Program-made: the position numbers and the translations under genes
The notes under the pieces: model-generated
The model's database searches: none
The model's input: the letters and a program-made list of their open reading frames with translations, nothing else
What the model was told of the DNA's origin: nothing
In this document: piece by piece, positions 491 through 37,241 of the stretch
How the letters are laid out: each line of letters starts with the position of its first letter
Numbering within the stretch: the stretch's first letter is position 1
NCBI GenBank assembly: GCA_009908385.1
Contig: JAAAPE010000004.1
Span: 66,322-103,644, forward strand
Direction: 5' to 3'
Length of the DNA stretch: 37,323 nucleotides
DNA from: Gammaproteobacteria bacterium
GTDB lineage: Bacteria > Pseudomonadota > Gammaproteobacteria > Xanthomonadales > Wenzhouxiangellaceae

Positions 491-545
491 GAAATTCGAA
501 ATACGAAATACGAAATAAATGCGAACGACCGAAATTCGTATGACC
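491..545. repeat. Heptamer array with reverse arm, 5' of the DUF1249 gene
   Basis: Four tandem 7-nt units (GAAATTC, GAAATAC, GAAATAC, GAAATAA) occupy 491-518. A second related segment, CGAAATTCGTATG, at 530-542 contains the partial inverse CGTAT/ATACG. The whole is AT-rich in a GC-rich genome. It fills much of the 129-nt gap between the DUF1249 start and the ppsR stop. It belongs with the other 7-8-nt arrays in this window; no coding capacity is credible. Confidence 0.7.
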
Positions 546-561
546 CAAACAGGCTCGCGCG

Positions 562-1380
562 CTAGCGCATTTCGCGATTGAGGCCCAGCTCCAGGAGGAT
601 TCGGCTGGCCAGTTCCTCGACCGAGGTTTCAGTCGAGGACAGCATCGGCACCCCCTCGGCGCGAAGCATCGCCTCGGCCGCCTCGACCTCGTAGCGGCAC
701 TGCTTGAGCGAGGCGTAACGGCTGCCGGGGCGCCGCGCCTCCCGGATCTGCGAGAGGCGCTCGGGATCGATGCTCAGGCCGAACAGTTTCTGCTTGTGCT
801 CGCGCAGGAAGGCGGGCAGCCGCGACTGCTCGAGATCCTCCTCGGTGAGCGGATAGTTGGCCGCCTTGACTCCGAAGTGCAGCGCCATGTAAAGGCAGGT
901 CGGCGTCTTGCCGGAGCGGGAGACGCCGATCAGCACCACTTCGGCGGCGTCGAGACGCTTGGAGATGCCGTCGTCGTGCGTCAGGGCGTAGTTGGTCGCC
1001 TCCATGCGGTCCTCGTAGCCCTTGCTGTCACCCATGCCGTGCGCCTGGCCCACTCGCGGCGAACGCGACACGCCCAGCGCCGACTCGAGCCGTTCCATGA
1101 AGGTCCCGAACATGTCGAACAGATGGCCGTTCGACGCCTCCAGGACGCCACTGACCTCCGGATCGACGATGGTGCTGAATATGATCGGTCCCTCTCCGCC
1201 CTCGGCCTCGGCGGCCCGGTCGATCAGGGACACCGCGTCACGCGCCTTGCTCGGCGTGTCGACGAACGGCAGGCGGACCTGCCGGAATTCGACGTTGGAG
1301 AACTGGGTCATCAGGCTGTGGCCGAAAGTCTCGGCCGTGATCGCCGTGCCGTCGGAGATAAAGAATACGGTTCTTCGCAT
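562..1380 (-). CDS. ppsR: PEP synthase regulatory protein (kinase/pyrophosphorylase, DUF299)
   Basis: This 272-residue protein is a DUF299 bifunctional regulator. In this family it inactivates PEP synthase by ADP-dependent threonine phosphorylation and reactivates it by phosphate-dependent pyrophosphorolysis. The start MRRTVFFISDGTAITAE at 1380 is the family N-terminus; an upstream extension to 1419 is not conserved. The P-loop-like GVSRSGKTPT motif lies at about residues 152-161, followed by the expected YPLTEEDLE segment. It is divergent from ppsA with 59 nt between the start codons, the usual arrangement for regulator and target, and length is normal. No anomalies seen. Confidence 0.95.
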   Translation of the reverse strand: MRRTVFFISDGTAITAETFGHSLMTQFSNVEFRQVRLPFVDTPSKARDAVSLIDRAAEAEGGEGPIIFSTIVDPEVSGVLEASNGHLFDMFGTFMERLESALGVSRSPRVGQAHGMGDSKGYEDRMEATNYALTHDDGISKRLDAAEVVLIGVSRSGKTPTCLYMALHFGVKAANYPLTEEDLEQSRLPAFLREHKQKLFGLSIDPERLSQIREARRPGSRYASLKQCRYEVEAAEAMLRAEGVPMLSSTETSVEELASRILLELGLNREMR

Positions 1381-1395
1381 AGGATTCCAGGCGGT

Positions 1396-1401
1396 TACAA
1401 T
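1396..1401 (+). promoter_or_regulatory. Probable -10 box for ppsA
   Basis: TACAAT (5 of 6 to the sigma-70 consensus) lies 38 nt before the GTG start of ppsA, in the short ppsR/ppsA divergent gap. No good -35 hexamer is seen at 16-18 nt spacing, so an activator may be needed. A GGGGAG Shine-Dalgarno sequence at about 1429-1434 supports the GTG start at 1440. Confidence 0.4.
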
Positions 1402-34963: not shown

Positions 34964-35764
34964 TCAGCGCTTGCGCTGCATCGACTTGCGCACGCCGCGC
35001 ATCATCATCCGGAAATAGAATTCGGGGACGAAGCGCTTGAGGCGCCACAACCAGCGCGTGTTGCCGTGGGTCAGCAACAGGAAACGCGGTTTCTCCACGG
35101 CCCGGAACACGGTCTCCGACACGTCTTCCGGGCTGACGCCCGAGCTGTCCATCCAGCGCTCGACGCGCTTGTGATAGCTGCTGTCGGGCGCCCGCATGGT
35201 CTCGGTCAGACGAGTGCGCACGAAGGCCGGACAGAGCACGGATACGTGGACGCCGGCATCGGCCAGTTCGGTTCTCAGCATCTCCGACATGGCGATCACG
35301 CCGGCCTTGGCCGTGCCGTAGGCATTGATCTGCGGGGCGCCCGCCAGTCCGGCGAAGGAGGCGACGTTGAAGATGTGGCCGCGACCGCGCTCGCGCATGG
35401 CCGGCGCGAACGCCTTGCATCCGGCCACGACCCCCATCAGGTCGATGTCCATCACCCACTGCCAGTCCTCGAGCGAGGTCTCCTCCAGCGATCCGCCGAC
35501 GGCGACGCCGGCATTGTTGATCAGCGCGTCGGGTGCCCCGATCGAATCACGAACGCGCTCCCAGTCCGCCCAGCGCGTCACGTCCATGGCCACGGGCGAA
35601 GCCCGTTGTCCCAGTTCGTCAGCCAGCGCCTGCGCGCCGTCGGCGTCGCGGTCGGCAATGACCACCTCCCAGCCGGCACGGTGGAAACGTCTGGCCATGG
35701 CGGCGCCGAGGCCGGATGCGGCGCCCGTGATCAGCACGGTGCGCCCGGATGCTTGCGAGTTCAT
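34964..35764 (-). CDS. Short-chain dehydrogenase/reductase
   Basis: This 266-residue classical SDR has TGAASGLG at residues 13-20, NNAG at 83-86, and catalytic Ser136, Tyr149 and Lys153 (YGTAKAG). An aspartate at the end of the second strand (ADRD) favours NAD(H). The C-terminal 50 residues are basic and aromatic (RWLWRLKRFVPEFYFRMMMR), the type of tail that often binds membranes, as in lipid-metabolising SDRs; the substrate is unknown. The ATG at 35764 (MNSQASGRT) is preferred over a longer in-frame start. It is convergent with kbl and 85 nt downstream of the transporter gene, with no recognisable element in that gap. Confidence 0.87.
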   Translation of the reverse strand: MNSQASGRTVLITGAASGLGAAMARRFHRAGWEVVIADRDADGAQALADELGQRASPVAMDVTRWADWERVRDSIGAPDALINNAGVAVGGSLEETSLEDWQWVMDIDLMGVVAGCKAFAPAMRERGRGHIFNVASFAGLAGAPQINAYGTAKAGVIAMSEMLRTELADAGVHVSVLCPAFVRTRLTETMRAPDSSYHKRVERWMDSSGVSPEDVSETVFRAVEKPRFLLLTHGNTRWLWRLKRFVPEFYFRMMMRGVRKSMQRKR

Positions 35765-35849
35765 GCCCGCATTCTCCGCGAGGCCCGCGGCCAACACAAG
35801 GGCGGGTCGACCCGTTCGGCCTCCCGCGAAGGCCTCACGTTCCCGGGCA

Positions 35850-37217
35850 TCACGAATAGCCCAGCCACACGGCAGCCATCAGCACGACGGCCCCGGCGGC
35901 GTAGAGCTTGAGGATCAGCGGCAGGCAGAACCGGAACCAGCGCGCGTAGGACACGCCGGCGATGCCGAGAATACCCATCAGGATGGCGTTGGTCGGGATG
36001 ATCATGTTGGTGAAGCCATCCCCCATCTGGTAGGCCAGTACCGCGACCTGGCGCGCGACGCCGACCAGGTCGGCGAGCGGCGCCATCAGCGGCATGGTCA
36101 CGTAGGCCTGCCCGGAGCCGGAGGGAATGAACAGGTTGAGCACCGCCTGGATCAGCATCATGCCGACCGCCGAAAGCTCGGCGCCCACCAGCGACAGCGG
36201 CAGCGACAGGTAGTGGACGATCGTATGCAGAATCTGGCCGTCCTCCATGATCAGGGCAATGCCGCGGGCGATGCCCACCAGGATGGCGGTCTCGGTCAGG
36301 TCGCGCGCACCCTCGATGAACTTCTCCGACGCGCGGCTCGGGCCCAGCCGCCCGATCGCCGCCGCCACGAGGCCGAGGATGAAGAAGGCGGCACCCAGCT
36401 CGTTCATGTACCAGCCGCGCGTGGCGATCCCCCAGACCGCCACGCCCAGTGCCGCCAGGAAAGCGAGGACGATGGCCACGTGTCCACCGTTCAGTCGTGG
36501 GTAGTCCGCGGGCGGATCGGCCCCCTCGGGCGGCGCCTGCCCATGCAGCACGCTGCGGGTCGGATCCTCGCGCACCTGTCGGGCATAGGACCAGACGTGG
36601 TGCACCGCGATCAGCACGAAAGGCACCAGCAGGCCCAGTCTTACCGGCCAGCCCGAATAGGTCGGCAGACCCGCGATGTCCTGGGCGACGACCACCGTGT
36701 ACTGGTTGAACGCCGCCACACCGTAGCCGACCCCGTAACCGGCGATGACCATGCCCACCGCGGTCATGGCATCCATCCGCATCGCCCGACAGAGCGCGAC
36801 CAGGATGAGCACGAAGGGAATGTACTCTCCGGAGGAACCGACCGCGCTCGAGGCCAGCGCGAACACGAAGACCACCGCGAGGATCAGCATCGCCGGCCGG
36901 TCCCGGAATCGCTCGAGCAGCCTGCCGAGCAGTGCATCGATGGTGCCGGTAGCTCGAATGATCGACAGGACCCCGCCGATGATGAACAGGAAGAAGATGA
37001 TCGGTGCGGCGTCGGCAAATGCGCGCGGCACCGCCGTGAACAAGGCCAGCGGCGAGAGCAGCTCGCGCTCTTCGACGACCTCGTAGGATCCCGGGATCAC
37101 GCGACCGGTGTCCGGGTCTTGCGCGAAAAAGCCCTGCGGCACCAGCCAGGTCGCCACCAGGGCGGCGACCATCAGGAAGAATAGAAGCGCAAGAGTGTGG
37201 GGAACGCGGAAGTTCAT
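35850..37217 (-). CDS. YfcC-family (DcuC superfamily) membrane transporter
   Basis: This 455-residue polytopic inner-membrane protein has about twelve hydrophobic segments, starting MNFRVPHTLALLFFLMVAAL. Conserved blocks are FIIGGVLSIIRATGTIDALLGRL, SSAVGSSGEYIPFVLIL, NLFIPSGSGQAYVTMPLMAPLADL and DGFTNMIIPTNAILMGILG. These are typical of YfcC/ArcD-like carriers in the C4-dicarboxylate-uptake-C superfamily. Substrates proposed for relatives include basic amino acids and short carboxylates; none can be assigned here. The ATG at 37217 has no Shine-Dalgarno sequence, because the 25 nt before it are an octamer repeat. A TTG start upstream would overlap the preceding gene. Confidence 0.9.
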   Translation of the reverse strand: MNFRVPHTLALLFFLMVAALVATWLVPQGFFAQDPDTGRVIPGSYEVVEERELLSPLALFTAVPRAFADAAPIIFFLFIIGGVLSIIRATGTIDALLGRLLERFRDRPAMLILAVVFVFALASSAVGSSGEYIPFVLILVALCRAMRMDAMTAVGMVIAGYGVGYGVAAFNQYTVVVAQDIAGLPTYSGWPVRLGLLVPFVLIAVHHVWSYARQVREDPTRSVLHGQAPPEGADPPADYPRLNGGHVAIVLAFLAALGVAVWGIATRGWYMNELGAAFFILGLVAAAIGRLGPSRASEKFIEGARDLTETAILVGIARGIALIMEDGQILHTIVHYLSLPLSLVGAELSAVGMMLIQAVLNLFIPSGSGQAYVTMPLMAPLADLVGVARQVAVLAYQMGDGFTNMIIPTNAILMGILGIAGVSYARWFRFCLPLILKLYAAGAVVLMAAVWLGYS

Positions 37218-37241
37218 TTCGTTGGTTCGTTGGTTCGTTGG
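37218..37241 (-). repeat. Octamer array abutting the transporter start codon
   Basis: Three exact copies of TTCGTTGG (plus-strand reading; CCAACGAA on the coding strand) fill 37218-37241. The whole gap between the preceding gene's TGA (37243-37245) and the transporter ATG (37215-37217) is 25 nt, so the array is essentially the entire intergenic region and the ribosome-binding position. Confidence 0.85.

Follow-up and report, generated by a model that had tools for sequence, protein, structure and literature searches.

The DNA analysed here (the window) is a stretch of 37,323 nucleotides from a gammaproteobacterial genome of the Wenzhouxiangellaceae (GCA_009908385.1, here G000; 85% complete, 2.94 Mb in 155 contigs), taken from C73:66322-103644 and reaching the end of that contig. 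Eight gaps between its genes had been predicted to carry tandem arrays with units of 7 or 8 nt, and Tandem Repeats Finder (TRF) detected an array of period 7 or 8 at each of these places (8/8). Such arrays, which often fold back on an inverse arm and often differ in unit between related species in the same gap, are the subject of this analysis. The gaps are referred to below by the positions 491, 3815, 5459, 18498, 28118, 30332, 33687 and 37218, and the features they hold are as follows; TRF spans equal the coordinates given unless stated.

489-517, plus strand: CGAAATN array of period 7, family C, with an inverted-repeat score of 8 and no notable inverse arm (TRF, sequence)
3811-3836, plus strand: GTCAGGA array of period 7 without inverse arm, congeners holding other families in this gap (TRF, sequence)
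5455-5540, plus strand: octamer array of family A, GTNNGTGC type, forming a G-rich 5' arm (TRF span 5455-5553; sequence, inverted-repeat scan)
5556-5606, minus strand: GACGCAC/GACCAC units forming the inverse arm to the 5455 array (sequence, inverted-repeat scan)
18495-18561, plus strand: family B fold-back with TTCAGG 5' arm, core GGGCGGGCTTCGG and CCTGAAN 3' arm (18533-18561, the TRF span; inverted-repeat scan), followed by the gene dnaE (Pfam)
28118-28139, plus strand: TTGGTTCT array of period 8, 5' arm (TRF, sequence)
28194-28223, plus strand: ACCAAAAC array of period 8, weak inverse arm (TRF; score 11)
30316-30355, plus strand: CCGAAAT array, family C, 5' arm, among the few C-rich 5' arms (TRF, inverted-repeat scan)
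30423-30453, minus strand: inverse arm of the 30316 array, GTTTCGGATTTGG... (sequence, inverted-repeat scan)
33685-33744, plus strand: family B fold-back with GGTTTCAGGGTTCAGG, core CCGAAGCCCGCCC and CCTGAAN array (TRF spans 33678-33700 and 33721-33744; inverted-repeat scan)
37218-37241, minus strand: TTCGTTGG array of period 8 (TRF), abutting the start codon of a minus-strand gene called at 35850-37217

Seven congeners are syntenic with the window, namely G002, G003 (99% complete), G004, G022, G023, G024 and G026, of which G023 and G024 are single-contig genomes. Match positions identical between G003 and G038, the genome behind L086, suggest that G003 is the genome of W. sediminis XDB06, which would place the organism of the window in Wenzhouxiangella or near it. 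The original prediction also stated that most arrays are faced by an inverse arm. With a strong inverted repeat defined as a score of at least 15, this applied to four of the eight gaps (5459, 18498, 30332 and 33687). The score at gap 28118 was weak in G000 (11, compared with 20 in G003 and 22 in G026), gap 491 scored 8, gap 3815 held only a pair resembling repetitive extragenic palindromic (REP) sequences, and no inverse arm was seen at gap 37218, where the contig ends only 82 bases away. The REP-like pair, made of GTCGGGGCCGCG palindromes at window positions 3855-3951, adjoins the GTCAGGA array as a separate feature, and in G023 the fold-back at gap 28118 encloses a comparable REP pair. The 37218-37241 array occupies the place expected for the ribosome-binding site of the minus-strand gene.

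Array periods were surveyed in the window and 20 other stretches of G000, amounting to 424,146 bases (91% coding, 36,815 bases intergenic), with gene boundaries from a simple in-house open reading frame (ORF) caller and TRF arrays of periods 3-20 counted above threshold. Of 66 intergenic arrays, 41 had period 7 (20) or 8 (21), compared to 4 of 24 coding arrays with period 7 and none of 24 with period 8. A single dinucleotide shuffle of the identical pieces gave no array of either period. A further 18 intergenic arrays had periods of 14, 15 or 16; ten intergenic rows had period 15 (7+8), one of which (L020 3115-3320) is a coding repeat overlooked by the ORF caller. The marked intergenic excess of periods 7 and 8 that had been predicted was thus borne out, and because of this excess neither of the two outcomes named beforehand as contrary, periods 7 and 8 being no commoner than others or being equally frequent inside genes, occurred in the 424-kb sample. 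The idea that the process acts only between genes went too far, since the four coding period-7 arrays are two TTCAGG fold-backs lying in frame in protein linkers (L017 12739-12858 and 14837-14962). The host proteins are a 2-oxoacid dehydrogenase (E2)-type acyltransferase, where the linker follows the lipoyl domain, and a lipoyl-domain pyridine nucleotide-disulphide oxidoreductase.

Array abundance is patchy among lineages and within the genus. In 20 random Pseudomonadota stretches (369 kb), period 7 was absent and period 8 occurred once, and 20 stretches of Planctomycetota (355 kb) held seven period-7 arrays confined to three stretches, where the four rows with the G-rich arm first come from two sites. 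Within the genus, G024 had 22 intergenic period-7 arrays in 140 kb and G002 had none in 120 kb. One rival explanation is an artefact of assembling a fragmented metagenome bin. At least five contigs (C155, C46, C64, C22 and C114) do have a match to the 5459 array no more than 450 nt from their start, and the window itself ends where its contig ends. However, arrays are also present in the single-contig genomes G023 and G024 and in named isolates, e.g. W. sediminis XDB06, and syntenic flanks frame them. The single-contig genomes and isolates refute this explanation, to which we give almost no credence.

The predicted fold-back layout is real. Among gaps of 40-450 nt, shorter and longer ones being dropped, a strong inverted repeat was found in 24 of 29 array gaps in G000, 12 of 17 in G024 and 15 of 16 in the acidobacterial bin G032. 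After shuffling, the same array gaps gave 1, 0 and 0, respectively, and gaps without an array gave 15 of 144, 5 of 43 and 7 of 37. The layout also persists in the corresponding gaps of other species. In a table of orthologous gaps from which 14064, 31522 and 37218 were omitted for want of a comparable orthologue, together with missing cells, and with G000 left out, strong inverted repeats were present at six array gaps in 25 of 39 cells and at six array-less gaps in 2 of 39; gap 491, counted apart, gave 0 of 7. Not all 25 positive cells are regular arrays, as G023 at 30332 is REP-like and irregular types occur in G003, G026 and G022 at 5459, in G026 at 3815 and in G002 at 33687.

In these syntenic gaps the unit family often differs between congeners while the fold-back remains. 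Gap 33687 has TTCAGG units with the core in G000 and G026; in G023 the core is kept and both arms consist of GGTTCCG/GGTTTAC units, a single CCTGAAACC remaining at the outer end. Elsewhere this gap holds a 10-nt CACAGATGAA fold-back (G003), a CGCAGATT type (G022), AAGTGTG units (G004 and G024) or a different hairpin (G002). Gap 3815 has GTCAGGA in G000, GGTTAGCT/GGTTGGCT in G003 and G022, CACGGAA in G026 and G004, and AAGTGTG with an inner GGTGCGA array in G024, and is nearly empty in G023. Gap 18498, before dnaE, holds TTCAGG types in G000, G003 and G026 and AAGTGTG units in G004; G023 has a minimal form there, G002 a plain GC hairpin and G022 an empty site of 19 nt. Gap 5459 is 7 nt long in G002. 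In some neighbours the family has been kept by descent, as in G000, G003 and G026 at 28118 and in G000, G004 and G022 at 30332. At gap 30332 the 3' arm consists of 7-mers in G003 and 8-mers in G026, with 5' arms alike. This is slippage with a 7-to-8 change in one arm, and it supports the slippage process that the original prediction had considered. Two other cells stand out: in G024 the orthologue of gap 30332 (L261) carries about 500 nt of a CTCCCCTT-type array and no fold-back, and at the orthologue of gap 28118 in G004 (L254) a GGTTGGC-type array faces a CTTCACA array, with mismatched arms (score 6), which may represent an incomplete unit switch.

Within the window the unit does change from gap to gap. 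In the genome as a whole the units recur as dispersed families, so that they are not private to their gaps: the 401-base piece bearing the 5459 array had 91 matches within G000, and the matches listed for the 18498 fold-back include many other sites of the genus. The families recognised in G000, from a unit listing that omits periods 6, 9, 12 and 18, are GTCNGTR(C) (A), TTCAGGN (B), CGAAATN (C), CGTTGGTT-like units (D), TGGTCCY and the 10-nt GATGAACACR. Separate from these is a family of fold-backs with units of about 10 nt (CACAGATGAA/TTCATCTGTG and CGCAGATT), seen at L015 5765, L019 19329, L022 15862, L023 863 and gap 33687 of G003, which occurs in many bacterial genomes.

In the genus, 11 of 21 sites of a shared core, CGAAGCC[CT]GCC, lead directly into a 7/8 array (L067 and L109, titled just Gammaproteobacteria bacterium, being grouped with Wenzhouxiangella), compared to 0 of 20 for four scrambled cores and 0 of 5 for the true core in loci of other phyla. 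The units that follow it are several, including TGAAACC, CTTCACA, GGAAACC and AAACCGT, and this core-bearing family behaves as a dispersed element. These observations favour a mobile palindromic element, similar to REP sequences or to miniature inverted-repeat transposable elements (MITEs), with heptamer arms and a transposase acting in cis or trans, the arrays being its decayed or expanded ends; presence or absence at orthologous gaps and the in-frame copies in two protein linkers point in the same direction. However, constant ends were not seen, the loops differ in other families, and the arms vary in unit and length, the relatives being too diverged for target duplications to be read. Additionally, a search for the Y1 family, the one transposase family covered, gave no match to Y1_Tnp (PF01797, RAYT family) in G000, G003, G022 or G026. 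We regard a mobile element as a doubtful explanation.

The fold-backs have a pronounced arm asymmetry. In the final set of 64, taken from gaps of 40-450 nt and reduced from 69 by removing one duplicate and those with arms off the array (REP-like pairs and others), the 5' arm contained more G than C in 58, with 5 opposite and 1 tie, compared to 26 G-first, 19 C-first and 4 ties among 49 ordinary inverted repeats. Nine of ten named unit families are G-first, the exception being family C. The same orientation was found in 58 loci of other phyla, which come from genomes picked for a TTCAGG fold-back, several of them from one Hydrogenedentes bin, with 250 nt around the fetching site excluded: fold-backs there were G-first in 23 and C-first in 2, and a further 21 array sites had no fold-back. 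Array periods at these loci were 7 (49) and 8 (17), compared to 6 (1) and 9 (7). In IMG/VR contigs, which are putatively viral (L266-L270), five stretches carried the TTCAGG fold-back with the G-rich arm first and none carried it C-first, and AAGTGTG fold-backs were found there in neither orientation. Self-folding of the strands, better for the 5'-arm strand in 19 of 23 units with DNA parameters, largely restates the G excess and was not counted as additional evidence.

Transcription terminators or hairpins at mRNA ends, selected as RNA so that pairing alone matters and the sequence is free to drift, would account for part of this picture. In G000 and G024, arrays were present in 11 of 27 convergent gaps compared to 5 of 59 divergent ones (p = 0.0008), the inverted repeats at array gaps recur in other species as described, and an ordinary hairpin replaces the array in some array-less species, as in G002 before dnaE. 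The stems themselves carry no RNA-strand signal. When mismatches were read along transcription in 40 fold-backs between codirectional genes, G.U (49) equalled A.C (50), as it nearly did before doubtful rows were removed (53 and 56), and selection on RNA pairing is accordingly not indicated. The preponderance of A over T that intrinsic terminators show in the 5' arm was seen in ordinary inverted repeats (A over T in 36, T over A in 9; n=49), whereas array fold-backs showed the reverse (44 with T over A, 19 with A over T; n=64), as judged from A/T counts in the arms alone. Some orthologous gaps are also near empty, such as those of 19 nt and 7 nt noted above. Selection as terminators is thus unlikely to be the reason why these arrays exist.

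We prefer the reading that the arrays result from slippage in steps of 7-8 nt combined with DNA-level snap-back copying, tolerated mostly in gene-end gaps, and give it a probability of roughly one half. The arrays would grow by replication slippage, 7-8 nt per step and in a single arm each time, and snap-back (intrastrand template-switch) DNA synthesis would make, and partly keep, them as inverted pairs. A nascent strand with the G-rich form would fold on itself and be copied, which would place the G-rich arm first on both strands. Such arrays would be tolerated mainly in gene-end gaps because steps of 7 or 8 nt break reading frames and promoters, and fast turnover in these gaps would leave related species with different units in one gap. 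One-arm growth fits slippage, and complementary arms without RNA-strand signal fit snap-back copying at the DNA level. The near-neutrality of the arrays, the cause of the 7-8 nt step length and the snap-back step itself are inferences. Intrastrand template switching is described in PMC8794818 as repairing stems by their 5' base, and is proposed there as the cause of the 5' enrichment of G and U in RNA stems; our data agree with this prediction for G, and for T by locus.

Several observations weigh against this reading. The predicted 5' T excess holds by locus (44:19), not by family (11:14), and the 5' arms of family C are C-rich in 3 of 3 cases. Position-wise covariation of orthologous arms is weak, as there are few compensatory changes at gap 33687: from G000 to G023, 2 of 16 pairs changed doubly and 3 were broken, and from G026 to G023 the figures were 2 and 7 of 28. 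On-site slippage and snap-back also leave the spread of families to many gaps unexplained and do not account for the shared core adjoining arrays of different units.

As to machinery, G003 carries arrays, is 99% complete and matches neither Y1_Tnp nor the reverse transcriptase family RVT_1, and Y1 transposases and reverse transcriptases therefore seem dispensable. Both were rejected as array makers, and with them the templated process through a reverse transcriptase that the original prediction would have allowed is disfavoured. The nuclease subunit SbcD (TIGR00619) scored above the curated cut-off in 1 of 30 genomes of the genus (G019), compared to 8 of 14 control genomes, and this scarcity of canonical SbcD may let palindromes persist. 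It does not separate array-rich from array-poor genomes. Loss of SbcCD as the cause was rejected, since array-poor G002 is also without SbcD and since, elsewhere, SbcD was found in 4 of 35 genomes with an array pattern compared to 4 of 30 Planctomycetota without family A and backward control patterns (matches above the cut-off, weaker metallophosphatase matches being left aside).

The TTCAGG fold-back occurs in many phyla, in at least 118 stretches, and family A was found in 9 of 16 TTCAGG-bearing genomes compared to 2 of 16 for a backward control pattern. Among 299 Pseudomonadota genomes, four consecutive TTCAGGN units occurred in 2 (G000 and G167) and the control in none. In 199 Planctomycetota genomes, family A occurred in 11 and the backward control in 8. 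Transfer as the source of shared units was dropped, since a control nearly as common indicates that similar intergenic repeats in distant phyla do not have to reflect horizontal transfer. With 88 matches in the single genome G030 (Planctomycetota bin FR_29), the backward control pattern, of CTGRTGN-type units, represents another strongly amplified heptamer family. Tentatively, the arrays of different phyla may belong to one general class of bacterial intergenic DNA that requires no dedicated enzyme, in which fold-back arrays whose 7-8 nt unit is free to vary replace one another in a gap, carry the G-rich arm first in several phyla, and are made and homogenised by snap-back of G-rich nascent strands. 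If so, folding of nascent strands in replication would leave a footprint that can be read from the G-arm-first rule.

Regarding known systems, the arrays have the features of heptameric intergenic simple sequence repeats, with tandem units of about 7 nt and an excess between genes. The short tandemly repeated repetitive (STRR) sequences of cyanobacteria are likewise heptanucleotide intergenic arrays; their units and hosts differ from those here (Wenzhouxiangella relatives), and we know of no fold-back rule for them. REP sequences and REPINs share with the present arrays the nature of dispersed intergenic palindromes, but have no tandem array, and the RAYT on which they depend had no PF01797 match in G003 or G000. 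That heptamer repeats are over-represented in bacteria was observed before, with no cause worked out; different units in one gap across species, together with the strong arm asymmetry, make the question of slippage and snap-back testable. Unit replacement at orthologous gaps and a general G-arm-first rule were not found described in the literature searched, which is weak evidence of absence as subscription literature lay mostly outside the search.

Heptamer-derived satellites appear in a survey (PMC6749651), and TAACTGA direct repeats of Beggiatoaceae, Cyanobacteria and Bacteroidetes lie mostly upstream of start codons, with one inverted case (MacGregor 2015, PMC4679880). The latter resemble our arrays as intergenic heptamer arrays of scattered taxonomy and differ by their single unit. 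A close precedent is given by the quadruplex-forming GGGNATC heptamer arrays known from Xanthomonas and Nostoc (Rehm et al. 2015, PMC4692102), described as mostly non-coding, rare between divergent genes, variable in length among relatives in the same gap, and arranged as 70 and 75 convergently oriented pairs in two Xanthomonas genomes. With inverted pairs of heptamer arrays already published for Xanthomonas, the earlier suggestion of a class wholly apart from known ones is not supported. Both PMC4692102 and PMC4679880 pass on the conjecture that the DNA polymerase is in contact with a stretch of 7 nt. Shared with the GGGNATC arrays are the heptamers, the non-coding bias, the scarcity in divergent gaps and the G-first orientation of convergent pairs (58:5 here). 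Unlike them, with one G-rich unit and four G tracts per array, the present arrays have many units, most without GGG (regular GGG tracts are absent from GTCNGTR(C), TTCAGGN, CGAAATN and TTGGTTCT), with octamers mixed in, unit replacement among relatives and a G-first rule independent of the unit. Quasi-palindrome template switching (Monttinen and Loytynoja 2022, PMC8794818) likewise creates and repairs inverted arms at the DNA level and predicts a 5' excess of G and U; it concerns single stems, whereas the present case is one of arrays that change their unit.

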